Assembly (NCBI GenBank): GCA_902771225.1
Contig: CACXWH010000005.1
Coordinates: 1-52,789, forward strand
Direction of reading: 5' to 3'
Length of the DNA stretch: 52,789 nucleotides
DNA from: an uncultured Methanobrevibacter sp.
GTDB lineage: Archaea > Methanobacteriota > Methanobacteria > Methanobacteriales > Methanobacteriaceae
Below the pieces are notes generated by a model. It searched no databases. It saw nothing but the letters and a program-made list of their open reading frames with translations, and was not told the DNA's origin. The translations under genes were made by a program, and so were the position numbers. Shown piece by piece: positions 24,880 through 50,865 of this stretch. Positions within the stretch are counted from its first letter, which is position 1, and the number at the start of each line of letters is the position of its first letter.

Positions 24880-25647
24880 ATGTTCGATACATTAGAAGAA
24901 AAAAGATTTTTATTAAAACAACTAATTAAAAGGGATTTTACTACTAAGTATAAGGAATCTGTATTGGGTATTTTGTGGAGTTTTATAAACCCTTTATTAA
25001 TTATGATTGTTTTTACAGTAATTTTTTCAGTTTTATTCAGACGTCAAATTCATAATTTTCCTGTATACTTTTTGTGTGGTAAAATTTTGTATGATTTTTT
25101 TGTAGCTGCTACAAGAGGTGCTATGAATTCTATTAGGGGAAATAGGGGTATTTTAACGAAAATTTTTGTTCCAAGGTATATGTTTGCAGTGGGTTCAATA
25201 TGTTATGAGTTTATTAATTTTTTAATAACGTTGGTTATTTTATTTGGAGTTATGATTGCTACAGGTGAACCATTTCATCTAATGATGTTAGCTTCAGTTA
25301 TTCCTTTTATTTTGCTTATTATAATGATAATTGGTGTGGGTTTAATTTTAGCCGTCATAAATACATATTTTTCAGATATTGGTCACTTTTATTCAGTTTT
25401 TACATTAATATTGATGTATGCCTCAGCTTTATTTTATCCAATGGAAATTGTTCCTGCAGATATCCAGATAGTTTTCACATTAAATCCATTATATGTTGCA
25501 ATTTCTTGTTTTAGAGATACAATGATGTTCAATGTATTTCCGGATATTTCATTATTGCTTTATCTTGCAATTTTTTCTATTATGTTATTTGGGGTTGGAT
25601 TTTTGTTATTTAGAATTCATGAGAAAAAATTAGTTTTAAAACTTTAA
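24880..25647 (+). CDS. ABC-2 type polysaccharide/teichoic acid export permease
   Basis: The 255-residue integral membrane protein has the N-terminal motif of Wzm/TagG permeases: LLKQLIKRDFTTKYKESVLG, then ILWSFINPLLIMIVFTVIF. About six transmembrane helices follow, including YASALFYPMEIVPADIQ and NPLYVAISCFRD, which are typical of this family. It would form the channel that exports a lipid-linked surface glycan or glycerol-phosphate polymer. The ATPase gene follows within 20 bases and the glycosyl/glycerophospho-transferases come next, so it is the first gene of a surface-polymer operon. The substrate is inferred from the neighbours. Confidence 0.92.
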   Translation: MFDTLEEKRFLLKQLIKRDFTTKYKESVLGILWSFINPLLIMIVFTVIFSVLFRRQIHNFPVYFLCGKILYDFFVAATRGAMNSIRGNRGILTKIFVPRYMFAVGSICYEFINFLITLVILFGVMIATGEPFHLMMLASVIPFILLIIMIIGVGLILAVINTYFSDIGHFYSVFTLILMYASALFYPMEIVPADIQIVFTLNPLYVAISCFRDTMMFNVFPDISLLLYLAIFSIMLFGVGFLLFRIHEKKLVLKL

Positions 25648-25664
25648 TTAAATGGATGTTTAAA

Positions 25665-27029
25665 ATGAATACTAAAAAAAATCGCAATGAATTAAATTTA
25701 TTAAATTCAATAAATGGTGCTGATTTAAATTTTGAGGAATTGGATGCTGAAGAGCTTAAACATGAAATATCAATTATTCAAGAATCTATAAATAATGGAA
25801 AAATTAATTTGTCTCCTGAAGAGGAAAAAAGTCTTCTTAAAGAGTTAAATTTAATTTTTCAACATTTAAATTCATCGGAGGATAATAAATCATTTGATGT
25901 GGATGAAATTGTTCAGGATGTTGCTGAAGATTCTGGTTTGGGTGTTGATTCTCGGGATGAATTAAATGATTTTGCTTTTCATGATGAAAATGTTGGTGAA
26001 GTTGATGTTTCTGATGATGTTGTTCGGGATGTAGTTGAGGATTCTGGTTTGGGTGTTGATTCTCGGGATGAATTAAATGATTTGAATTTGAATGATTTTT
26101 ACATATCTGATGATTCTTCTGAGCTGGTTAATGAAGGTATTGATGATGTTTCTGATGATTTTGGGGTCAATGATGAAAATATTGATGAAATTAATGTTTC
26201 TGATGATTTGTCTGTAGATGATGCATTAACTGATTTGGTTCCAAATTACTCTGATGAGATTTCTATTGCTGTAGAAAATGTATCAATGCGATTTGATGTT
26301 TCTAAAGATAAGATAGATACATTAAAGGAATTTGTAATCAGAACTATTAAACGAAATAAAAGTGATACTAGAACAACCACGGCATTAAATAATATTTCAT
26401 TTGAAATTCCAAAAGGAGATCGTGTTGGAATTATTGGTTTTAATGGTGCTGGAAAAAGTACTCTTCTTAAAGTTTTATCCAGAGTATATGATCCTACTGA
26501 AGGTACTATCAAAACAAAAGGTAAAATTGCACCATTACTTGAATTAGGTGCAGGATTTGATAATAATTATACTGGAAGAGACAATATATTTTTAAATGGC
26601 GCTTTTTTGGGATATTCTGAGGACTTTTTAAAGGAAAAATATGATGAAATTTTAGAATTTTCGGAATTAGGTGATGCAATTAATTATCATGTTAAAACAT
26701 ATTCTTCTGGAATGCGTGCTAAATTGGGTTTTTCAATAGCTACTATTGTTGAACCAGATATTCTTATCTTAGATGAAATATTATCTGTGGGTGATATTAA
26801 ATTTAGACGCAAAAGTGCAGATAAAATCAAATCTTTAATAAATTCAGGAATTACAGTTTTACTTGTTTCTCATTCTGTTGCTCAAATAAGAGATTTATGT
26901 AATAAAGCTATTTGGTTAGATAGGGGAGAGCTTATAATGTATGGGGAAGTAAATGAAGTTTGTGATGCATATGTGAAAGCCGCTTCTAGTGCAACAAAAG
27001 ACCAATTAAAAAATATTCAATTAAACTAA
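25665..27029 (+). CDS. Wzt/TagH-like export ATPase with long acidic repeat-bearing N-terminus
   Basis: The ATPase partner of the upstream permease. The C-terminal ~255 residues are a Wzt/TagH-type ABC domain: IAVENVSMRFDVSKDKI, TTALNNISFEIPKG, Walker A GFNGAGKST, ELGAGFDNNYTGRDNI, signature YSSGMRAKLGFS, Walker B ILILDEIL and SHSVAQI. The first ~200 residues are extraordinary: mostly Asp, Glu, Ser, Val and Asn, with two copies of EDSGLGVDSRDELND about 37 residues apart. The underlying DNA repeats exactly for about 44 bases (25929 on and 26040 on). There is no C-terminal carbohydrate-binding extension as in some Wzt proteins. ATG 25665 is chosen for the GGATG upstream; ATG 25656 is the alternative. 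Confidence 0.92.
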   Translation: MNTKKNRNELNLLNSINGADLNFEELDAEELKHEISIIQESINNGKINLSPEEEKSLLKELNLIFQHLNSSEDNKSFDVDEIVQDVAEDSGLGVDSRDELNDFAFHDENVGEVDVSDDVVRDVVEDSGLGVDSRDELNDLNLNDFYISDDSSELVNEGIDDVSDDFGVNDENIDEINVSDDLSVDDALTDLVPNYSDEISIAVENVSMRFDVSKDKIDTLKEFVIRTIKRNKSDTRTTTALNNISFEIPKGDRVGIIGFNGAGKSTLLKVLSRVYDPTEGTIKTKGKIAPLLELGAGFDNNYTGRDNIFLNGAFLGYSEDFLKEKYDEILEFSELGDAINYHVKTYSSGMRAKLGFSIATIVEPDILILDEILSVGDIKFRRKSADKIKSLINSGITVLLVSHSVAQIRDLCNKAIWLDRGELIMYGEVNEVCDAYVKAASSATKDQLKNIQLN

Positions 27030-27044
27030 TTATTAGGTGCTTTT

Positions 27045-30000
27045 ATGAGGGATTTTAAATTTTCTATTATTACATGTTTTTACAATTCTGAAAAATATTT
27101 GGAAGAATCTATCAAATCTATTATTAATCAAACTCTAGATTTTGAGGAAGATATTCAATTAATTTTAGTCGATGATGGAAGTGAGGATAAATCTCTTGAT
27201 ATTGCATTGAAATATAAAGAATTATATTCAGAAAACATTTCTGTTTTAACTCAAAATCATTTAGGTATTTCTTACGCCCGTAATTTAGGATTAAAAAATG
27301 TTAAGGGTAAATATGTAAATTTTTTAGATAGTGATGATTATATTTCTAAAAATGCTTTAAAAGAGGTATTTAATTTTTTTGAAGAAAATTTTGATGAAAT
27401 GGATGTCCTATCTATTCCGATGCATTATGTCGACAGATTAAATACGGATCATGTGGAATATGATTTTTCAAATAAAAATTTGATAATTGATTTAGAAACA
27501 AATCCGAATAACCCTTTGTTTTCTATATCCTCTACTTTTATTAAACATGAGGCTATTGAGAATCTTTCTTTTAATAATGACTTAATCTGTTCTGAGGATT
27601 TGCTTTTATTAAATAAGTTATTATTAAACAAAAGTAAATACGCGATTCTTTACGAACCGGTATATTATTATAGAAAAAGGTATGATTTATCAAATTTCCA
27701 TGAAAATATTTTTTTTGAAAATTCTTTTTACAATGAACGTGTTGAAAAATTCCATTTAAAATTTGTTAAAGAATGTTCTAATAAATATGGATTTGTACCA
27801 AAATTTATCCAATATTCCTTACTTTATGATTTAATAACTGTTATAAAGCAGTCAGAATTACATCTTTCAGAAAATAAGTTTGAATTTTTTATTCTTTTGA
27901 ATGAATTTTTACAATATATTGATGATGAAGTAATATTTGAGAATAAATATATTGATAATGAATTAAAATATTTCATTTTATATCTTAAAATGGGGGATAT
28001 CGATAACGAAATTCAAGATTTTAATGTTATTTCTAAAATTGGAGATTATACTTTAGATGAATTGAATGTACATAAATTTTGGTATGATAATATTGAAATC
28101 AATGAAAATTATTTATATATTTCAGGTATTTTTAATAGTTATTTTGATGTCGATGATTTATCTGTAGTGGCAGTTAAAGAAAAAGATGGAGAATATGAAT
28201 TATTTAAAGGAGCATATCTTCAAAATGACCACCATACTACTACTAGGTTTTTATCGGTGGATTGGGTACAGACATATCCTTTTTATTTTAAAATTCCTAC
28301 TAAGGATTTAATTGATTCAAAAATTAGGATTAGGATTAATTATCATAAAAATGGTGATAACTCGGATTTTGATTGGGATAATATCTCTTTTTCATATTTG
28401 GATGGTAAGTTTACTAAAGGTTGTGTATTCTCAGAAAAAATTAATAATTTTATTAAGGATGATATTCGAGTATCATTTAAAGATAGATCATTTTTTATTT
28501 CAAGAGGATTTAAATTTTCTGTTGTCATGGCTATTTATAACACTGAAAATTATGTAAAAGATGCTATTGACTCAATTATTAATCAAACTATTGGATTTGA
28601 AAATCATATTCAATTAATTCTTATTGATGATGGAAGTACGGACAATACTAATAATATTCTTTTAGATTATCAAAAAAAATATCCTGAAAATATCCTTGTT
28701 TTAACACAAGAAAATCAGGGTCAAGCTACAGCACGTAATAATGGATTGAAATTTGTTCAAGGAGAATATGTTAATTTTTTAGATAGTGATGATTATTTAT
28801 CTGAAGATGCAATGGAAAAGGCATTTCCATTTTTGAAAAAGCATGAAAAGGAGATTGATTTCGTATCTATTCGTCAGAAACATTTTGGAAGAAAAGATAG
28901 CCCCCATATGTTGAATTATAGATTTGATAAAGGGGATAGAATAATTGATTTGATTAAAAATCCAAATAATCCTCAGCTTCCTTGTAATTCTGTATTTTTT
29001 AAAAATAATTTGTTCAATGAATATAAATTCCCTACAAATGTTTTATCTGCTGAAGATGCAATAATGGTAAATAAAATTTTATTTGAAAAGAAAAAATATG
29101 GTGTATTAAAAGACCCAGTTTATTATTATAGAAAACGTGAAGATTTAAGCTCCACAATTGATTTAGTCCCCGCTCAAAAAGGATTTTTTACAGACAAATT
29201 GAAATATTACTTTTTAGAATTAATTAATTATTCTATAGAGCATGAAGGTGAAGTTCTTAAGTTTATTCAGTGTGTGATTGCTTATGATTTGCAATGGGGA
29301 TTAGAAGAACCAAATTTAGATGTTCTTGATACAGAACAAGAAAAAGAGGAATTTTGGTATTACTTGGGACATATCCTTGATTGTCTTGATTTTGATGTTG
29401 TAGAAAATAATCATAACGTTAAAAAACCGATATTAAAAGAATTTTTTGTTGCTTTGAAAAATAAAGATGTTCACACTGAAGTTTTCCCAGATACTGCTAT
29501 AATCAAAGCAGGACGTTATCCATTAGATCGATTTACTAATCATAATTTATGGTTAGATATTATAGAGATACATGATGGTTTTTTAAACATGTCTGGATTT
29601 GTATACAGCCTTTTCAGTATAGATTCTACTTCCATTGGTGCAGTTAAAGAAATGGATGGTGGAACTGAGTATTATGATGGTAAATATGTAAAATATACTT
29701 CTAGAGAAAATTTAACATATTTGGGGATTACTTGGCAATATAAATATACTTTTGATATTAAAATTCCAGTATCTAAAAATGATGTTTTCAATGTTAAACT
29801 TTGTTATAATTATCATATTAATGGCGATAAAAATGATTTTAGTTTAAGTAATATTATTCGAGCATTTTTAGATATAAAATTTACTAAACATGCAAATTTA
29901 TCTGAAATTAGTAATTATTTAATAAAAGATGATATCTCAGTTTTATTTAAAGATAAAAGATTTTTAATTAGGCCATATTCATATTTGCGTATGGTAAAAT

Positions 30001-31190
30001 ACGAATCAAATGTTTTATCTGAGATTAATTTGGGTGAAAATAATCATGCTTTATATGCAATATTCATGAGATTGTTATATTTATTATTATATCCATTTGT
30101 TTCAAGAATGCATAAAAAACATCCAACCTATCTTTTCATGGATAGGATTGATGATGCTGATGATAATGCTACTGTTTTATTTGAGTATGCTGTATCTCAA
30201 AGAGATAATGTAAATAAATATTTTGTTTTATCTAATAAAAGTAAAAATTTCTCAAAAATTTCTAAAATAGGTAAAACTTTAAATTATGGGTCATTTAGAC
30301 ATAAAATGAAATATCTTTTTGCTGATAAAGTTATTTCATCACATACATATCCTTCTGTTATTAATCCATTTTATACGGATGATAATGAAGTTACATTATA
30401 TTCTGGATTAATTAATCCGGATATTTATTTCATTCAGCATGGTGTTGCTGTTGGAGATTTATCTGGTTGGTTCTCTAAATTTGATAAAAATGTTCGTTTA
30501 ATTGTTACTTCATCAGATTTGGAAAGAGAATCATTTTTACAAGAAGGATACAACTATGATGAAAGTATTGTTCATACATTAGGTATTCCACGTCATGACA
30601 ATCTTAAAAATAATGATAAAAAACAAATTTTAATCATTCCGACTTGGAGAAAATATCTTAGAGGTTCTAAAAGTCTATTTTTAAGTTCGGATTACTTTAA
30701 TTCTTTAAATTATGTGTTAAATAATGAAGAATTTATTAATTTGGCAGAAAAAAATGGTTATAAAATTGTATTCAAACCACACCCTGAACTGGAAAAAGTC
30801 ATTGATGGTGAAAAGTATTTGGATTTATTAGAAATCGATGAACGAATTGATGTTGTTAGTGATGTTTCCTATCAAAAATTATTTGAAGAATCTTCTCTTT
30901 TAATCACAGATTATTCTTCAGTATTCTTTGATTTTAGTTATTTGAAGAAACCTATTATATATTATCAACCATATGATGATTATCATTATGATAAAGGATA
31001 TTTTGATTTTGAAACAATGGGATTTGGAGATATTATCACTGAATGGGATTCTTTATTAAGTAAAATTGCATTCTATTTACAAAACGGTTGTGAAATGGAA
31101 GAAAAGTATAAACAAAGGGTCAATAACTTTTTCAAACATCATGATGGTAAAAATTCCATGAGAGTTTATGATTGGATACTAAAACATTAA
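27045..31190 (+). CDS. GT2-GT2-CDP-glycerol glycerophosphotransferase fusion protein
   Basis: A 1381-residue modular transferase. Unit 1 (residues 1 to about 486) starts with a GT2 domain: FSIITCFYNSEKYL, ILVDDGSEDKS, SYARNLGLKN, NFLDSDDYIS. A helical region and a beta-rich domain around residues 340-470 follow. Unit 2 (about 487-985) repeats the same order: FSVVMAIYNTENYV, LIDDGSTDN, TARNNGLKF, NFLDSDDYLS, beta domain. The C-terminal region (about 1020-1381) matches CDP-glycerol:poly(glycerophosphate) glycerophosphotransferases (TagF/TagB): YFIQHGV, FKPHPE, LLITDYSSVFFDFSYLKKP. It probably adds sugars and glycerol-phosphate (or another polyol phosphate) to a surface polymer at the inner membrane face; the substrate is not shown. 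Start preceded by TTAGGTG. Confidence 0.9.
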   Translation: MRDFKFSIITCFYNSEKYLEESIKSIINQTLDFEEDIQLILVDDGSEDKSLDIALKYKELYSENISVLTQNHLGISYARNLGLKNVKGKYVNFLDSDDYISKNALKEVFNFFEENFDEMDVLSIPMHYVDRLNTDHVEYDFSNKNLIIDLETNPNNPLFSISSTFIKHEAIENLSFNNDLICSEDLLLLNKLLLNKSKYAILYEPVYYYRKRYDLSNFHENIFFENSFYNERVEKFHLKFVKECSNKYGFVPKFIQYSLLYDLITVIKQSELHLSENKFEFFILLNEFLQYIDDEVIFENKYIDNELKYFILYLKMGDIDNEIQDFNVISKIGDYTLDELNVHKFWYDNIEINENYLYISGIFNSYFDVDDLSVVAVKEKDGEYELFKGAYLQNDHHTTTRFLSVDWVQTYPFYFKIPTKDLIDSKIRIRINYHKNGDNSDFDWDNISFSYLDGKFTKGCVFSEKINNFIKDDIRVSFKDRSFFISRGFKFSVVMAIYNTENYVKDAIDSIINQTIGFENHIQLILIDDGSTDNTNNILLDYQKKYPENILVLTQENQGQATARNNGLKFVQGEYVNFLDSDDYLSEDAMEKAFPFLKKHEKEIDFVSIRQKHFGRKDSPHMLNYRFDKGDRIIDLIKNPNNPQLPCNSVFFKNNLFNEYKFPTNVLSAEDAIMVNKILFEKKKYGVLKDPVYYYRKREDLSSTIDLVPAQKGFFTDKLKYYFLELINYSIEHEGEVLKFIQCVIAYDLQWGLEEPNLDVLDTEQEKEEFWYYLGHILDCLDFDVVENNHNVKKPILKEFFVALKNKDVHTEVFPDTAIIKAGRYPLDRFTNHNLWLDIIEIHDGFLNMSGFVYSLFSIDSTSIGAVKEMDGGTEYYDGKYVKYTSRENLTYLGITWQYKYTFDIKIPVSKNDVFNVKLCYNYHINGDKNDFSLSNIIRAFLDIKFTKHANLSEISNYLIKDDISVLFKDKRFLIRPYSYLRMVKYESNVLSEINLGENNHALYAIFMRLLYLLLYPFVSRMHKKHPTYLFMDRIDDADDNATVLFEYAVSQRDNVNKYFVLSNKSKNFSKISKIGKTLNYGSFRHKMKYLFADKVISSHTYPSVINPFYTDDNEVTLYSGLINPDIYFIQHGVAVGDLSGWFSKFDKNVRLIVTSSDLERESFLQEGYNYDESIVHTLGIPRHDNLKNNDKKQILIIPTWRKYLRGSKSLFLSSDYFNSLNYVLNNEEFINLAEKNGYKIVFKPHPELEKVIDGEKYLDLLEIDERIDVVSDVSYQKLFEESSLLITDYSSVFFDFSYLKKPIIYYQPYDDYHYDKGYFDFETMGFGDIITEWDSLLSKIAFYLQNGCEMEEKYKQRVNNFFKHHDGKNSMRVYDWILKH

Positions 31191-31205: not shown

Positions 31206-33845
31206 ATGGAATCTGACAATTATTTTAATAATCAAATATTTTTTTCAATAGTAATTGCATGTTATAATGTTGAAGACTATATTGAAGAAGCTATAGATTC
31301 CATTATTAATCAAAATTTTAATTTTGAAAGGCACATTGAAATCATATTAGTTGATGATGGCAGCTTTGATACTACTGCTGAAATTTGTAAAAACTATGTT
31401 GATAAATATCCAAATAATATTAAATATTTTTATAAAGAAAATGCAGGACAAGCTTCTGCTAGAAACTTTGGAATAAAATATGCGTCAGGTAAATATATAA
31501 ACTTTTTAGATGCTGATGATAAATTAAGGGAAGATACGATATGTAATGTTTTTGAATTTTTTGAAGAAAATTATTCAAAAATAGATTTGGTTGCAGTACC
31601 AATGTATTTTTTTGAAAGACAAACTGGGGATCATCCTTTAAATTATAAATTTGATGAAAATAAAGTGGTGGATTTAGAAACTCAATGGAATTATCCTCAA
31701 TTAGCTACTAATTCAGCTTTTTTTAAAAGAAATGTTTTTGAAGATTTTCAATTTGATACTGTTTTAATAAGTTCAGAAGATGCAATAATGGTAAATAAAC
31801 TTCTTTTAGAGAAAAATGCATATGGTGTTGTTAAGGATGGTGGGATGTGTTATAGAAAACGTTTTGATGAAACATCCACTATCGATACTTCAAAATTAGA
31901 TAAACGATTTTATATTGGGCGTTTAAATGGATTTTTCAAGGAATTAATTAGATATTCTATAGAAAAAGTTGGTCATATACCTAAATTTATTCAGTATGTT
32001 ATTATTTATGATATTAAATGGATGTTAATGGCTGAAGAGAGATTTGAGGCTTTGAATGATGATGAATTATCTGAATTTGATAATGGTGTTCATGATGTCT
32101 TGAATTATGTTGAAGACGAAGTCATTGAATGTCATTTAAATAAAGATCCTTGGAAAATAAAAAAATATATCTATGAATTAAAATATGGTGAATGCATAAT
32201 TTCAGTCAAGGATAATGATTTGGTAATTTCAACTAATGATGTTATTTTGGATGAATTGTCTATTCATAGAATTTATTTAGATATTGTTGAAATAAAAAAT
32301 AATCATTTATTAATTTCAGGATTTCTAAAATCTTATTTTAAAAGTAATGATGTTGAGATTATATTGATAAATAAAAATTCTAATGGTGAAGAAATATTTT
32401 TATCAAAAACTTTCAGCTATTTTAACAGAAAAGAAAGTGAATTTTTTGATTCTTATATTAATTTTGATTTTGATATTCCAGTAACTATAAACAATAATTA
32501 TGAATTTTCGATTCATGCAAAATCTAAAGAATTTGATTGTTCTTTCGAATTGCCTATCCATTTTTTAAATTATGCTAGATTATCTGAAGTAAGTAATTAT
32601 GCAGTTTGGGATAATTATATTATTCACTTTAAAAATAATAAAATTTTAGTGGAAGATTATTCTTATTTTAAAATGTTTAAATGGGAATTAAGAATATTGC
32701 TTGTTATTTTAAAACATACTCCTGCCTATTGGACTTCTGTAATATTTTTTAGATTTATTTATTTAATTTTATTCCCTTTTTATAAAGAAAAAGATATTTG
32801 GATGTTTATGGATAGAAGAGATGTTGCTGACGATAATGCTGAACATCTTTATGAATATTGTTGCGATATTGATGATGGAATTGATAAATATTTCACATTA
32901 TCAAAAGATTCAAAGGATTTTAATAGGTTAAATTCATCATTAAAAAATATTATTCCATTTTATTCTATCAAACAGAGGTTTTTATATTTATTTTCAGAAA
33001 AAATAATTTCATCTCATCCCGATGAATTTATTTTAAATCCTTTTTGGGGTAAAAATGTTAAATTGTATTCTGGATTGATTAATTCAAAAAAAATATTTTT
33101 ACAACATGGTATTACTAAAGATAATGTTTCATTATGGCTTAGAAAATATGATAAAAATTTAGATATGTTGCTAACAGTTTCTGAAAGAGAAGCCCAATCT
33201 TTTTTGGATTATGAATATAATTATGATAAAAGTATAATTAAGGTATTGGGATTTCCCCGTTTTGATAATTTGAAGGATAATTCTGATAAAAAACAAATTT
33301 TGATTATGCCCACTTGGCGGCGTAGTATCGATCATCTAAAAAATCAACAGATTATAAAATCATTATATTATGAAAAAATGAATTCATTATTTAACAACAA
33401 ACAGTTAATTAAACTAGCGAAAGAACATGATTATCATATAATAATCAGACCACATCCTAAAATTATTGATATCCTTGATTTATTTGATACTAATGATTAT
33501 GTACATATAGATAAAACTGCCCGTTATCAGGATTTATTTAATAACTCATCAATATTAATAACTGATTATTCTAGTGTAGCTTTTGATTTTGCATATATAA
33601 AAAAGCCAGTAATATATTATCAATATGCTGATGATTATCATTTCCAAGAATCATTCTTTGATTATGAAACTATGGGTTTCGGGGAAGTTATTTCTGATGA
33701 AGATGAATTAATTAAAATAATTGATGATTATATTTCAAATAATTGTGAAATGAAAGATAAATATAAAAAGAGAGTAGATAAATTTTATAAATTTAAAGAT
33801 AAAAATAATTGTAAGAGAGTTTATCATACTATTAAAGATTTATGA
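31206..33845 (+). CDS. GT2-CDP-glycerol glycerophosphotransferase fusion protein
   Basis: An 879-residue paralogue of the upstream protein with one GT2 unit instead of two. GT2 motifs lie in the first ~110 residues: FSIVIACYNVEDYIEEAIDS, ILVDDGSFDTT, SARNFGIKY, NFLDADDKL. A beta-rich linker domain of the same type follows (around 345-500). The TagF-like domain (about 525-879) shows WMFMDRRDVADDNAEHLYE, IFLQHGIT, IIRPHPK and LITDYSSVAFDFAYIKKP. AATTGGTG lies before the ATG and the gap to the upstream gene is 15 bases. It likely extends or primes the same phosphodiester-linked polymer. The pairing of GT2 and TagF domains is common in bacterial wall teichoic acid and capsule loci. Confidence 0.9.
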   Translation: MESDNYFNNQIFFSIVIACYNVEDYIEEAIDSIINQNFNFERHIEIILVDDGSFDTTAEICKNYVDKYPNNIKYFYKENAGQASARNFGIKYASGKYINFLDADDKLREDTICNVFEFFEENYSKIDLVAVPMYFFERQTGDHPLNYKFDENKVVDLETQWNYPQLATNSAFFKRNVFEDFQFDTVLISSEDAIMVNKLLLEKNAYGVVKDGGMCYRKRFDETSTIDTSKLDKRFYIGRLNGFFKELIRYSIEKVGHIPKFIQYVIIYDIKWMLMAEERFEALNDDELSEFDNGVHDVLNYVEDEVIECHLNKDPWKIKKYIYELKYGECIISVKDNDLVISTNDVILDELSIHRIYLDIVEIKNNHLLISGFLKSYFKSNDVEIILINKNSNGEEIFLSKTFSYFNRKESEFFDSYINFDFDIPVTINNNYEFSIHAKSKEFDCSFELPIHFLNYARLSEVSNYAVWDNYIIHFKNNKILVEDYSYFKMFKWELRILLVILKHTPAYWTSVIFFRFIYLILFPFYKEKDIWMFMDRRDVADDNAEHLYEYCCDIDDGIDKYFTLSKDSKDFNRLNSSLKNIIPFYSIKQRFLYLFSEKIISSHPDEFILNPFWGKNVKLYSGLINSKKIFLQHGITKDNVSLWLRKYDKNLDMLLTVSEREAQSFLDYEYNYDKSIIKVLGFPRFDNLKDNSDKKQILIMPTWRRSIDHLKNQQIIKSLYYEKMNSLFNNKQLIKLAKEHDYHIIIRPHPKIIDILDLFDTNDYVHIDKTARYQDLFNNSSILITDYSSVAFDFAYIKKPVIYYQYADDYHFQESFFDYETMGFGEVISDEDELIKIIDDYISNNCEMKDKYKKRVDKFYKFKDKNNCKRVYHTIKDL

Positions 33846-33864: not shown

Positions 33865-34872
33865 ATGGGGCTACCGAAAGTTTCAATTATCATTCCAGTA
33901 TATAATCCAGGAGAATATTTTACTAGATGTTTAGATTCTGTTGTAAATCAATCATTGAAAGAAATTGAAATCATATGTATTAATGATGGATCAACTGATG
34001 GTTCTATGGATGTTTTAATGAGTTATTCAGAAAACGATAATCGTTTTAAAGTTTTTCATCAGAAAAATTCTGGTGCAGGGGCTGCTAGAAATAAAGGTAT
34101 AGATGTTGCTCAAGGAGAATATATTGTATTTTTGGATTCTGATGATTGGATTGAAAATGACATGTGTGAGAAATTATATAATCATGCTAAAGACTTGGAT
34201 GTTGATTTAGTTTTATTTGATGTAATTTGGTATCATAAAAATGATAAAAAAGAAATAAGTAAATTTTTCAATGATAATGAATTTGGCGAAGACTACAAAT
34301 CTTTTGTATTTGATAGAACATCCATATATGATAAAATTGTTAATCCTAGTTTGGGGGTTATATGGTCTAAATTTTATAAAACCTCTTTTATTAAAGAAAA
34401 TAATATAAAATTTTCTACATATAAGATTTATAATGATGTAGTTTTTCATTTTAAAACGATTCTTTCAGCTAATAAAATTGCATATTATCCCCATGTTTTT
34501 TATCATTATATCAAAGTTGGACAACCATCATTACAAACGTCTTATAGGTGGGGAGAATATGAATCTACATGGTTTTTCGTCATGTATGAAGTTCGTAATT
34601 TTTTAATCAAACATGATTTAATGGATGAATTTAAAATGAAATTTATTAACTATTCATTTTCTAGTTTTGAAAGGAAACTTAACGGTACCCAAAAAGAATA
34701 TAAGGAAGAATTCTTTTTAAAAATTAAATATTTCTATGAATCTTTAAGTTTAACTATTGATGAATTTAAAAGTTTAATATTGCAGTATCAAACATACTAC
34801 ATTCATGTGTTATGTTCAAAGGACTATGAAGAGTTTGATTGCATGAATGAAAATTTTAATGGAAGATTATGA
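33865..34872 (+). CDS. GT2 family glycosyltransferase
   Basis: The 335 residues begin PKVSIIIPVYNPGEYFTRCL and continue with IICINDGSTDGS, GAGAARNKGID and the DxD-type metal motif FLDSDDW, the family 2 inverting GT-A fold. A ~200-residue C-terminal part with YNDVVFHFKTILSA resembles EpsJ/WcaA-type enzymes. No transmembrane helix is seen, so it is a cytoplasmic enzyme acting on a membrane-bound acceptor. It is 19 bases after the upstream transferase. The donor and acceptor cannot be predicted from the sequence. Confidence 0.88.
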   Translation: MGLPKVSIIIPVYNPGEYFTRCLDSVVNQSLKEIEIICINDGSTDGSMDVLMSYSENDNRFKVFHQKNSGAGAARNKGIDVAQGEYIVFLDSDDWIENDMCEKLYNHAKDLDVDLVLFDVIWYHKNDKKEISKFFNDNEFGEDYKSFVFDRTSIYDKIVNPSLGVIWSKFYKTSFIKENNIKFSTYKIYNDVVFHFKTILSANKIAYYPHVFYHYIKVGQPSLQTSYRWGEYESTWFFVMYEVRNFLIKHDLMDEFKMKFINYSFSSFERKLNGTQKEYKEEFFLKIKYFYESLSLTIDEFKSLILQYQTYYIHVLCSKDYEEFDCMNENFNGRL

Positions 34873-34902
34873 TTGAATGTATTTTTTAGTGGAATAGATA
34901 TT

Positions 34903-35955
34903 ATGAGTGAGAAAATTCGTGTGGGAATATTGGGTTCATGTGTCACAAGGGAAGTTTTTACTACATACTATAATGATTATAAAAATCATTTTGATTTAAT
35001 TTTTTCCCATGAACGAGAATCCATCATAAGTCTTTTTCAAGATCCTATTGAATTTGATGAAGAAGATATAAAATTATATCCTGATTCTAAAAAAAATAGG
35101 TTTAGATCAAAAAACATTTTCAATGATCTTTCCAAATCATTTTTTGAAGATTTAAAAAAAGGTATAGATTATCTAATTATTGATGTTTATTTTGAAGCTT
35201 TATTTGGAATAATGATTTTAGAAAATGGTTCCATAATCACTAATAATAAATGGGATTTACCAAAAACGAAATTTTATAGTGATTTAAATAATTATACTAC
35301 TTGTGATATGTATGAAAATCAAAATGAATTTTTTGAATTATGGATAACTTATTGTAATAAGTTATTTGAATTTATAAGATCATCATATCCTGGGGTTAAA
35401 ATAATTTTAAATAAAGTTAAATTGGCGGATAAAGTTCTTAAAGAGGATTATTCTTTTTATGTGGATATGGATTTTAAATGGATGGTGCAAACATATTATC
35501 CATTTATCCAAAAATTTGAAAAATACATTGAAGAACATTATGATGTTTTAAAAATCGAGTATGGTGGTATAGTATTTACTAATGTAAATAATCGTTGGAG
35601 TCCATATATAGTACATTTAACTGATGAATATTATAATTTCGTATATTATTCTTTTTGTAAGTTGACTAATGTTGATAATTTACATTTAAATGATTCTAAA
35701 TTAAAATATATGTCTTCTAAGTTAACTATTTATGAAAATATTGTAAATAATATGGGTGGAGAACTTACAAATATGGATAATGAAATAACTGAATTAAATA
35801 TTTTGCTTGAAGAAAAAGAATGTATGATAATTAAATATGATGAAGAATTAAATTATTTTAAAGATTTTAAAGAAGATATTTTAAATTCATCTAGCTGGAA
35901 AATAACTAAACCATTTAGATATTTAAAAAATTCTGTAAATAAATCAAAAAAATAA
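34903..35955 (+). CDS. DUF6270/SGNH-like surface-polymer protein with C-terminal coiled coil
   Basis: The start at 34903 (MSEKIRVGILGSCVTREVF) is supported by GTGGAA upstream; the frame is open to 34873. The N-terminal GILGSCVTRE followed later by VDNLHLND resembles block I and the DxxH block V of SGNH-type hydrolases, as in the DUF6270/WcbI-like capsule proteins, with Cys beside the presumed nucleophile Ser. Residues of about 285-330 are a short coiled coil. The tail ILNSSSWKITKPFRYLKN is shared with the coiled-coil protein at 37255-37737. A role in acyl transfer or removal on the polymer is inferred. It is the last gene of the co-directional run. Confidence 0.7.
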   Translation: MSEKIRVGILGSCVTREVFTTYYNDYKNHFDLIFSHERESIISLFQDPIEFDEEDIKLYPDSKKNRFRSKNIFNDLSKSFFEDLKKGIDYLIIDVYFEALFGIMILENGSIITNNKWDLPKTKFYSDLNNYTTCDMYENQNEFFELWITYCNKLFEFIRSSYPGVKIILNKVKLADKVLKEDYSFYVDMDFKWMVQTYYPFIQKFEKYIEEHYDVLKIEYGGIVFTNVNNRWSPYIVHLTDEYYNFVYYSFCKLTNVDNLHLNDSKLKYMSSKLTIYENIVNNMGGELTNMDNEITELNILLEEKECMIIKYDEELNYFKDFKEDILNSSSWKITKPFRYLKNSVNKSKK

Positions 35956-35989: not shown

Positions 35990-37254
35990 AACCTTGTAGA
36001 AACCCTCATTTAAATATCTGAATTGCTCTGTAAATGTTGTATAATACATCTTTGAGTTTTGTTTCTTTATTTTGGAGTTTTGTACTTCTACTATAGTTTC
36101 CTCCGTTGAATCTTCTTTTTATTACATAAATTACACTTTCTACATTCATTCTTCGTGCGTAAACGTCGTGCCAGAAGATTGTTGCACTATTTAGTCTGTA
36201 ATGTCCTGTTTTTGCTCGTGTTTTTAATGGTATTTGGTCGAATGCACCTACTTCTTCATTTATGCATTTTCTTATTGGTTCTGTGTCATATGCTTTGTCT
36301 GCTAGGATGTAGTGTGGTTTGTATGGTTTTAATTGTCTTATTGATGGTATCGCGAATTGTGTATCGTATTTTGGACCTCGATTTGCTGCATAATTTAAGA
36401 TTATTCTTGTGTTGACATCTATTGCAATATGGTTTTTAATGTAGCTTTTTCTGCATTTGCCTCTTATTTTTGCGTAATAATGATCTGCATAGTCACTTGT
36501 GTGTCCGGTTCCATCCATTGCAGCTAATTCACAATCAATTGGATGTATAAACAATATTAAATTATTTAAATCTTTTAATTTTGTGTCTGACATTCGTACA
36601 AAGAATTTCTGAATTGTTGTGTGGTGTGGAAGCTTGTTAAGTTTTAAATATTTGGTTATTTTATCAGAAACATCTAAAATTTCAATTATTTCACGATATG
36701 TTGTTTTTAAGTAAGTTTTCATTGCTAAAATAGTGAATAATTGGGGTTGATTATAAATATGATTGCTATAATCACAGGAATACTTTGGAAATACCATTTT
36801 GTATAGTTAAATGTCAATTTAACAAAATCAAGCAATCTATTTTGATTTTGACCAATTTTAAATAGTTTTTCTTCTTGAGTTTTTCCATCAATCTTAAGTC
36901 CAAAATCCAAAAGGTTTAAATGTCTTAAATTCAAATAGTAATATGGAGAATAGTTTATTTTAGCGTACATATTAATAATTATTCTCCATTATTCTATTTA
37001 TAACTTATTATTCATTTTTTTAATGAATATCAAGTATTATTTCAAGTGTAAAAAAATTAAAGTAATTAAATCGCTTAAAATTAAAATCCAAGTAATTTAA
37101 TTAAAATTTTTTCGCGAAGAACAAATTCAAGTGTAAAATAAAAAGAACCGAAACATGTTAAAATTAAAAACAAAGAGAAAAAAACAATTATTTAACAAAA
37201 ATAAACAATAAATGTCGATATTCACTTAAATTTTGACAGGGTTTCTACAAGGTT
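35990..37254 (-). mobile_element. IS5-like insertion sequence, copy 1
   Basis: A 1265-bp element with perfect 17-bp terminal inverted repeats, AACCTTGTAGAAACCCT at 35990-36006 and its complement at 37238-37254. It is flanked by an exact 7-bp target duplication TTAATTT (35983-35989 and 37255-37261). The transposase lies on the minus strand. The ~280-base non-coding end (36971-37254) holds two copies of TTCAAGTGTAAAA (37041 and 37126), possibly transposase-binding sites. It inserted at the 3' end of the coiled-coil gene, whose stop codon lies in the duplicated target. Preserved ends and target repeat indicate a recent insertion. Confidence 0.88.
36006..36970 (-). pseudogene. IS5-like transposase, frameshifted
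   Basis: The DDE transposase of copy 1. The N-terminal part (from 36970, MYAKINYSPYYYLNLRHLNL) is in one frame; the main part (36797-36006, 263 codons) is in another. It carries the catalytic residues in AAMDGTGHTSDYADHYYAK, ILADKAYDTEPIRK and RRMNVESVIYVIKRRF. Degenerate copies 2 and 3 read through the junction in a single frame with one extra base (KYSKIVLNKYS against YTK/MVFPKYS), so copy 1 most likely lost one base in an A run near 36795. A programmed minus-one frameshift on AAAA is the alternative. Confidence 0.82.
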
Positions 37255-49722: not shown

Positions 49723-50823
49723 TCATGGGTCGAAATGTTTTATAAGATTAAATGATTCTTTTATAACTGAACACATATCAAAATACTGATACATACCTAA
49801 TCTTCCACCAAAAATAATCTTTTCTTCTTTTGAAGCTAATTTTTTGTATTTTTCATACAATTTAGAATTTTTTTCATCATTTATAGGATAATATGCTTCT
49901 TCTCCTTTTTTCCAAGTTTTTGGATATTCTTTTGTAATAATAGTTTTTGGGGATGAAGATCCTTCAAAGTGTTTATGTTCAATTATTCTTGTATATGGAG
50001 TTTCGGAATCTGTGTAATTTACAACAGCATTTCCTTGATAGTTTTCAGTATTTAATGTTTCAAATTCAAAGTTTAATCCTCTGTAATCGAGTTCACCAAA
50101 ACAGTAATCATAATATTCATCAATCATTCCGGTAAATAATATTTTATCTGCTATATTCAACCATTTTTCTTTATCATCAAAGAAATTTGTATTTAATTTA
50201 ACTTCTATTCCATCCAACATTTTTTCAATTATTTTTGTGTATCCACCAATAGGGATTCCTTGATATAAATCGTTAAAGTAATTATTATCAAAAATAAATC
50301 GTACAGGTAATCGTTTTATAATAGATGGGGGCAAATCTTCACATTTTCTTCCCCATTGTTTTTCAGAATATCCTTTCACAAGTTTTTCATATATATCTTT
50401 ACCCACAAGTGAAATTGCTTGTTCTTCAAGATTTTTAGGGTTTTTAATATTTGCTTCATTTTTTTGTTTTTCAATAATATCTTTTGCTTCTTGAGGTGTT
50501 TTCACTCCCCACATTTGGTAAAATGTGTTCATATTGAAAGGAAGATTGTATAATTTACCATTATAATTTGCAACTGGGGAATTTGTAAATCTATTGAAAT
50601 CAGCAAATTGATTTATATATTCCCAAATTTCTTTTTCATTAGTATGGAAAATATGTGCGCCATATTTATGAACATTTATATTTTCAACTTCTTCAGTATA
50701 AACATTTCCTCCGATATGGTTTCTTTTTTCTATTATTAAACATTTTTTACCTTTTTTATTCATTTCATGTGCAAAGACTGATCCAAACAAACCTGATCCC
50801 ACAATTAAAAAAGCATATTTCAT
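49723..50823 (-). CDS. glf: UDP-galactopyranose mutase
   Basis: This flavoenzyme converts UDP-galactopyranose into UDP-galactofuranose for surface glycans. The 366 residues carry the FAD-binding Rossmann start AFLIVGSGLFGSVFAHEMN and IIEKRNHIGGNVYTEE. They also carry YGAHIFHTNEKEIWEYIN, GYSEKQWGRKCEDLPPSIIK, RLPVRFIFDNNYFND, QGIPIGGYTKIIEKML and the closing GGRLGMYQYFDMCSVIK. Two adjacent ATGs exist; the second (50823) is better spaced from GAGAGG. It lies apart from the main operon, flanked by an IS copy, but fits its function. Confidence 0.96.
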   Translation of the reverse strand: MKYAFLIVGSGLFGSVFAHEMNKKGKKCLIIEKRNHIGGNVYTEEVENINVHKYGAHIFHTNEKEIWEYINQFADFNRFTNSPVANYNGKLYNLPFNMNTFYQMWGVKTPQEAKDIIEKQKNEANIKNPKNLEEQAISLVGKDIYEKLVKGYSEKQWGRKCEDLPPSIIKRLPVRFIFDNNYFNDLYQGIPIGGYTKIIEKMLDGIEVKLNTNFFDDKEKWLNIADKILFTGMIDEYYDYCFGELDYRGLNFEFETLNTENYQGNAVVNYTDSETPYTRIIEHKHFEGSSSPKTIITKEYPKTWKKGEEAYYPINDEKNSKLYEKYKKLASKEEKIIFGGRLGMYQYFDMCSVIKESFNLIKHFDP

Positions 50824-50865
50824 CATATCCTCTCTTTTATTAATTAATTTATTTTTTTAAAATTA

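Follow-up and report, generated by a model that had tools for sequence, protein, structure and literature searches.

In this study, we analysed a three-part fusion enzyme, P0001, encoded by an uncultured Methanobrevibacter sp., in which two family 2 glycosyltransferase (GT2) modules precede a domain with the fold of the polymerase TagF. The gene lies in the window, which is the whole stretch of DNA analysed (52,789 nucleotides) and one entire contig (CACXWH010000005.1) of the source assembly (GCA_902771225.1; 2.36 Mb, 122 contigs). Judging from its sequence and its structural models, P0001 is probably a cytoplasmic polymerase with three active sites that makes an anionic surface glycopolymer. 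The gene and its parts are listed below, with the Z scores of structural matches and the mean confidence of the AlphaFold model (predicted local distance difference test, pLDDT).

27045-31190, forward strand: P0001, the 1381-residue double-GT2 and TagF-fold fusion (open reading frame (ORF), Pfam and relatives)
27045-28505, forward strand: module A, residues 1-487, with GT-A core, helices and beta domain (model pLDDT 89.3; TarS Z 27.7, TarP Z 26.7)
27327-27338, forward strand: DxD motif of module A, D95-S-D-D98 (D97 and D98 are Gly in the orthologue of genome G003)
28506-29999, forward strand: module B, residues 488-985 (identity to A; TarS Z 28.7 in the model of B with the C-terminal domain)
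30000-31187, forward strand: TagF-fold phosphotransferase domain PF04464, residues 986-1381 (Pfam; TagF Z 20.2, TarL Z 19.0, Cps3D Z 18.7)
30438-30440, forward strand: catalytic His1132 (QHG), invariant (60/60); the donor-selectivity site is A1135, at the third position after it (site taken from PMC10299916)
30780-30782, forward strand: catalytic His1246 (KPHP), invariant (60/60)

The original prediction had described the protein as a module of GT2, helical and beta domains that is present twice and is followed by a domain of the cytidine diphosphate (CDP)-glycerol glycerophosphotransferase family, and both Pfam and AlphaFold bear out this architecture. Pfam found two Glycos_transf_2 stretches (protein expect value, E, 2.4e-63) and a single Glyphos_transf stretch (PF04464, residues 1018-1380, E 1.8e-48), whose score of 165.8 bits passes the family threshold of 22.1. 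Self-alignment and structure prediction had both been proposed as checks. In the self-alignment, copies A and B were colinear from end to end, with 194 of 487 columns identical (40%, over 485 residues; E 2e-109), and their global alignment score was 908, whereas 200 shuffles gave 73 at most. The model of copy A has a GT-A core, a helical stretch at about residues 226-316 and a beta domain at about 320-486, and the model of module B with the C-terminal domain (pLDDT 94.2) agrees with this domain order. Four of 67 genomes of the genus, including the source genome, match residues 1 or 2 to 1381 of P0001. Because three other genomes encode such proteins (68, 45 and 45% identity), P0001 is no assembly artefact; an assembly chimera was rejected on these matches and on the identical gene order in G003.

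The DDGS and LDSDD motifs, which the original prediction had noted in both copies, are intact there, as is the ED motif of the catalytic base. When the AlphaFold model of copy A was compared with solved structures, the best fold was that of TarS (308 residues, 4.6 Å); full-length TarS aligns over 417 residues, but at 7.8 Å. TarP structures with ribitol-phosphate oligomers gave Z scores of 26.6-26.7, and RmlT gave 26.3, but at 16 Å over 378 residues. TarS also leads for the model of module B with the C-terminal domain. TarS, TarP and RmlT are enzymes that decorate ribitol-phosphate chains. In the same model, the C-terminal domain resembled TagF, TarL with CDP-ribitol and Cps3D. The ratios of nonsynonymous to synonymous substitution (dN/dS) for A, B and the C-terminal domain were 0.32, 0.20 and 0.20 between the source genome and G003, and 0.14, 0.03 and 0.05 between genomes G060 and G013. 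All three parts of this type of fusion are under purifying selection, which is weakest in A.

In a published comparison (PMC10299916), the residue three positions after the catalytic histidine (His+3) is Pro in enzymes for glycerol-phosphate donors and Gly in those for ribitol-phosphate donors. The five PF04464 proteins of this genome carry Pro (contig C14), Gly (contig C24), Thr (the neighbouring P0002 and a protein of contig C59) and Ala (P0001). The fused class gave 176 distinct domains (one more match lacks the pattern), and in these His+3 was Thr in 104, Ile in 59, Leu in 4, Met in 3, Asn in 2, Ala in 2, Pro in 1 and Val in 1, and Gly occurred in none. The 25 multi-module proteins described below had Thr (16), Ile (6), Ala (2) and Leu (1). 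On contig C24 (L017, 4333-9645), a PF02397 sugar-phosphate transferase is clustered with the Gly-bearing protein of 361 residues, and PF04464 frames of about this length were seen in many genomes of the genus.

The genes around P0001 are as follows.

24880-25647, forward strand: membrane subunit of an ATP-binding cassette (ABC) exporter of the ABC-2, Wzm type (PF01061 E 3.5e-14; the best NCBIfam match, galactan exporter Wzm, is under its cut-off)
25656-27029, forward strand: ABC ATPase (Wzt/TagH type) whose N-terminal extension is long and acidic (PF00005 E 1.4e-22; NCBIfam teichoic-acid and galactan exporter ATPases are best, under their cut-offs)
31206-33845, forward strand: P0002, 879 residues, a single GT2 module with PF04464 (Pfam; a similar gene follows the double fusion of G003)
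33865-34872, forward strand: stand-alone GT2 (PF00535 E 3.8e-37; a GT2 gene stands at the same place in G003)

The adjacent ABC exporter of the original prediction is thus of the Wzm/Wzt type, and the neighbour said to hold the module once is P0002, which has the same C-terminal domain. The gene order of G003 is that of the window: a 160-residue gene, permease, ATPase, double fusion (1380 residues), single fusion (877 residues) and GT2. The 160-residue gene, which comes first in this order, presumably encodes ribosomal protein L10e. Exporter genes were found near the fusion in the loci of four relatives (G003, G060, G068 and G099), at about 8 kb from the multi-module fusion in G060, and the ORF table of the 19-kb G013 locus contained none.

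The supply of CDP-polyols was examined in the genus genomes, in 151 genomes of the phylum and in 14 controls. TarI of the source genome matches a solved ribitol-5-phosphate cytidylyltransferase at E 1.5e-93 and scores 373.5 bits (NF001183, cut-off 166), and TarJ matches a solved ribulose-5-phosphate reductase 1 at E 4e-114. The two genes are adjacent on contig C10 (L015, 8982-10704), a sign that this archaeon has a pathway to CDP-ribitol. TarJ was present in 65 of 67 genus genomes, including all 37 near-complete ones; TarI was above its cut-off in 84 of the 151 phylum genomes and in none of the 14 controls. All four genomes with a full-length match to P0001 have both genes. The original prediction had named a genome devoid of any CDP-polyol synthesis gene as the result that would speak against it, and because TarI and TarJ are present, this genome does not do so.

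The proposed search for a CDP-glycerol synthase gave a different result. TagD (TIGR01518) was above its cut-off in none of the 67 genus genomes and in 2 of the 14 controls. The best match in the source genome scored 33.1 bits against 165.4 and is a 153-residue gene, which we take to be the flavin adenine dinucleotide synthetase RibL. The genome has four CTP_transf_like matches; one, that scanned against NCBIfam, reached the TIGR01518 list, far under the cut-off. A TagD-like domain of about 107-119 bits, in frames of about 435-455 residues, was found in many genus genomes and is absent from the source genome. In G013 and G060 it reached 114.9 and 113.5 of 165.4 bits (frames of 449-450 residues), and in G029 a similar protein joins it to an oxidoreductase domain. 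At L064 (550-1878), a TagD-like domain and a Gfo/Idh/MocA oxidoreductase domain were seen in one protein.

On contig C14 (L016, 5316-7065), a GpsA-like enzyme (E 3.9e-48 to glycerol-3-phosphate dehydrogenase) adjoins a LicC-like cytidylyltransferase (E 2.8e-12), and this pair is a possible CDP-glycerol route without TagD. Because the PF04464 protein of C14 bears the Pro signature and lies about 10 kb from the pair, it is a better glycerol candidate than P0001. Archaeal lipids should need the other enantiomer of glycerol phosphate than the GpsA-type product. The LicC-like gene was found in 24 of the 67 genus genomes, and no match at E 1e-25 was found in the double-fusion genomes G003, G013 and G060. 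A similar GpsA-like and LicC-like pair stands beside PF04464-type genes at L237.

P0001 is one member of a series of increasing module number: proteins of Methanobrevibacter, Methanosphaera and their kin join one, two, three, four or five GT2 domains to one PF04464 domain. The longest members are listed below, with GT2 domains as counted by Pfam.

G120, 1811 residues: three GT2 domains and PF04464
G068, 1996 residues: four GT2 domains and PF04464
G115, 1980 residues: four GT2 domains and PF04464 (a similar 1980-residue protein is in G116)
G113, a single-contig genome of 2.87 Mb, 2553 residues: five GT2 domains and PF04464

Two or more GT2 modules precede a single PF04464 domain in at least 25 distinct proteins, which come from at least 22 of the 138 family genomes searched; these are lower bounds because only the best matches among genus, family and named records were followed. 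The list has 28 entries, three of which are truncated repeats, and the ORFs were read from DNA only. In eight of the proteins (1193-1219 residues), the upstream GT2 is short and lacks the beta domain. A 1745-residue frame in G001 was rejected as a fusion, as it consists of two adjacent genes of about 870 residues each. The DxDD motif was kept in all 25 C-terminal modules, a few of which vary at the ED base. Across the 25 multi-module proteins (truncated repeats excluded), 20 of the 34 profile-detected upstream modules have it and 14 do not, so modules cannot simply be counted as active sites. Many Bacillota records contain single-module members of this class, and 61 of 62 bacterial rows formed one group in FastTree. 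Among the best 80 matches to the archaeal profile, no bacterial locus had two full modules before PF04464, by which absence from bacteria is not shown.

In 14 multi-module genomes examined for donor genes, TagD was above its cut-off in none, and TarJ was found in seven, all outside the Methanosphaera group (genus group g12: G113, G114, G115, G116, G120, G123 and G125). TarI was above its cut-off in one of these seven (G125). In four genomes of the group, the surroundings of a multi-module gene include, about 6-10 kb away, a gene of the IspD family paired with a cytidylyltransferase/choline-kinase fusion (L254, 5745-8053, and similarly L255, L256 and L257; Pfam was run on the L254 pair, of G116, only). 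In G113, a cytidylyltransferase/phosphoenolpyruvate mutase fusion, a thiamine pyrophosphate enzyme and an iron alcohol dehydrogenase, a set of the phosphonate type, were seen about 12-15 kb from the 2553-residue gene (L258, 2930-6532).

The module trees bear on the age of the duplication. The A copies of the four genomes with a full-length match cluster (0.993), and the B copies intermingle with single-module proteins. In the first tree (FastTree, 162 rows), the upstream group also took in the first module of L232 and one bacterial row on a long branch (L153_7986). These two were left out of the IQ-TREE analysis of 83 modules (root unknown), for which 36 single-module rows were chosen from a list of loci; the trees omit seven truncated or near-duplicate proteins, and the IQ-TREE set excludes the eight short upstream GT2 domains. 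In this tree, one branch (Shimodaira-Hasegawa-like approximate likelihood ratio test 99) sets 16 upstream modules, drawn from 13 genomes, apart from all other modules, the C-terminal ones included, and upstream or C-terminal position changes once, against a mean of 13.5 after shuffling. The single origin of the upstream modules rests on 16 of 17 full-length upstream modules that were kept, several of them on long branches. Both the alignment of A with B and the module tree support the duplication proposed in the original prediction. On the trees it looks ancient, and a recent duplication was rejected.

We believe that the best reading of these results is a glycopolymer with phosphodiester links that leaves the cell through the neighbouring Wzm/Wzt pair, with activity, order of addition and export being what we infer. 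Modules A and B, as GT-A enzymes of the TarS/TarP/RmlT type, would each add one sugar, and the TagF-fold domain would add the phosphate-linked unit. Sugars and phosphodiesters might then alternate, or the sugars might decorate a phosphodiester chain. Wzm/Wzt would export the polymer, and P0002, with its one sugar module, would be a sister polymerase. The original prediction had gone further and proposed a repeat of two sugars and one glycerol phosphate. Glycerol is disfavoured as the phosphate-linked unit, and two sugars with one phosphopolyol is only one of several readings because the closest folds are those of chain decorators.

Several findings weigh against the polymerase reading. Copy A of G003, the nearest orthologue, reads LDIGG instead of LDSDD, so that the two active sugar transferases of the original prediction, although they fit the motifs of P0001, are no rule of the architecture. 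Evolution has also been faster in copy A than in either of the other parts, and for these two reasons A may be dispensable or non-catalytic. In the profile of 60 relatives, TagF of Staphylococcus epidermidis aligns in the same order with a GT2 module followed by PF04464 and keeps NDGS and DADD in its GT2-like N-terminal half. TagF is described in PMC10299916 as a plain glycerol-phosphate polymerase, and the GT2 motifs are therefore no proof of sugar transfer. As for the donor, A1135 of P0001 is neither the glycerol-type Pro nor the ribitol-type Gly, TarI and TarJ lie outside the window, and in the seven multi-module genomes of the Methanosphaera group no TarJ match was found at E 1e-10 and TagD was under its cut-off.

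If P0001 is a phosphodiester polymerase, two donors other than CDP-glycerol come first. CDP-ribitol is quite possible, though short of an even chance. It is the CDP-polyol with the clearest predicted supply genes here; TarI and TarJ are near universal in the genus, and some of the enzymes that match the GT modules best in structure were solved in complex with oligomers of ribitol phosphate. However, the P0001 domain matches neither the glycerol nor the ribitol signature, the Gly being found instead in the C24 protein, which could itself be the ribitol enzyme, and the lack of TarJ matches in the Methanosphaera group also counts against ribitol. To much the same degree, we can conceive that the PF04464 class transfers a third unit, such as the hexose 1-phosphate of CslB-type capsule polymerases or another CDP-activated alcohol. 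The fused class may use such a donor because its His+3 residues are mostly Thr or Ile and never Gly, and because the Methanosphaera-group enzymes lack a TarJ match or TagD above cut-off. The IspD-family gene and the cytidylyltransferase/choline-kinase fusion point the same way, and TagF-like domains able to transfer hexose phosphate are described in PMC5974469. Nevertheless, one published residue is a weak predictor, and other cytidylyltransferases may have been missed. Tentatively, and with some doubt, we extend this to gut Methanobacteriaceae at large, whose enzymes might be assembly-line polymerases of one to five serial GT2 modules and a TagF-fold terminal module. The number and kind of active modules would set the repeat, the terminal module would be a third PF04464 donor class, and the product would be an undescribed phosphoglycan.

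It is rather unlikely that the C-terminal domain polymerises polyol phosphate and that A and B add sugars as side groups only. The nearest folds, being those of chain decorators, suggest such a role, but the tested bacterial GT-A/TagF-like fusions place the sugar in the backbone (PMC5974469). We consider it unlikely, too, that module A has no catalytic role and acts as a scaffold or binds polymer: the DxD loss in G003, the upstream modules without strict DxDD and the highest dN/dS, which belongs to A, would fit, whereas all motifs are intact in module A of P0001 and most upstream modules keep DxDD. Least of all do we expect a repeat of two sugars and glycerol phosphate from CDP-glycerol, for which the Pfam name of PF04464, the adjoining GpsA-like and LicC-like genes and the sub-threshold TagD-like domain found in G013 and G060, two of the four genomes with a double fusion, speak, against the missing TagD, the Pro found in the C14 protein instead of P0001, and the missing LicC-like match in the three other double-fusion genomes.

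Some related systems are known. GT-A/TagF-like two-domain capsule polymerases have been tested as active enzymes of Gram-negative bacteria, for example Cps1B of Actinobacillus pleuropneumoniae (PMC5974469), and share with P0001 an N-terminal GT-A domain before a TagF-like domain, two catalytic histidines and ABC-exporter systems. P0001 has their sequence hallmarks (H1132 and H1246, and GT-A with DxD, twice as LDSDD); it differs from them in being archaeal, in having two GT2 modules (up to five in relatives), in the TarS-type beta domain of each full module and in the donor-site residue. TarS, TarP and RmlT, the best structural matches of both modules (Z about 26-29), are similar in GT-A fold, and in motifs as in TarS, whereas they are separate proteins and in P0001 such modules are fused serially to a polymerase domain. 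The TagF/TarL polymerases share the C-terminal fold (Z 19-20) and the histidine pair, TagF also having a GT2-like N-terminal half, but the selectivity residue is Pro in TagF and Ala in P0001. Bcs3 of Haemophilus influenzae b also has several catalytic domains in one polypeptide, including a TagF-related ribitol-phosphate transferase; according to PMC10299916, it differs in that ribosyl transfer is made by a phosphoribosyl pyrophosphate enzyme and a phosphatase, with no GT2 modules. We therefore regard the P0001 architecture and its series as a multi-GT extension of the TagF-like capsule polymerases; the series resembles modular machinery for making charged surface polymers akin to the teichoic acids of bacteria.

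An archaeal teichoic-acid-like polymer is no new idea, because homologues of teichoic-acid genes in Methanobrevibacter ruminantium were noted in 2010 together with a high wall phosphate, comparable to that of teichoic-acid walls; 'as-yet unidentified' wall glycopolymers were proposed for this species (PMC2812497). In titles and abstract openings (subscription journals being mostly outside the search), we found no prior description of archaeal TarIJ, of a series of multi-GT TagF fusions or of the split into donor classes. With CDP-ribitol genes, three PF04464 residue classes and graded polymerases, the question of wall glycopolymers becomes testable, and the series offers natural variants for asking whether the number of modules sets the repeat. 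If such polymers are made, they would offer targets on the surface of methanogens that are common in gut and rumen.

Three further genes were observed in the window. A DUF6270 protein with a TTG start lies directly 3' of the stand-alone GT2 gene (34873-35955, forward strand). A DDE transposase (36006-36797, reverse strand) separates the polymer operon from other genes related to glycans, so gene mobility is possible. A uridine diphosphate-galactopyranose mutase (49723-50826, reverse strand) is a possible source of galactofuranose donor for polymers.

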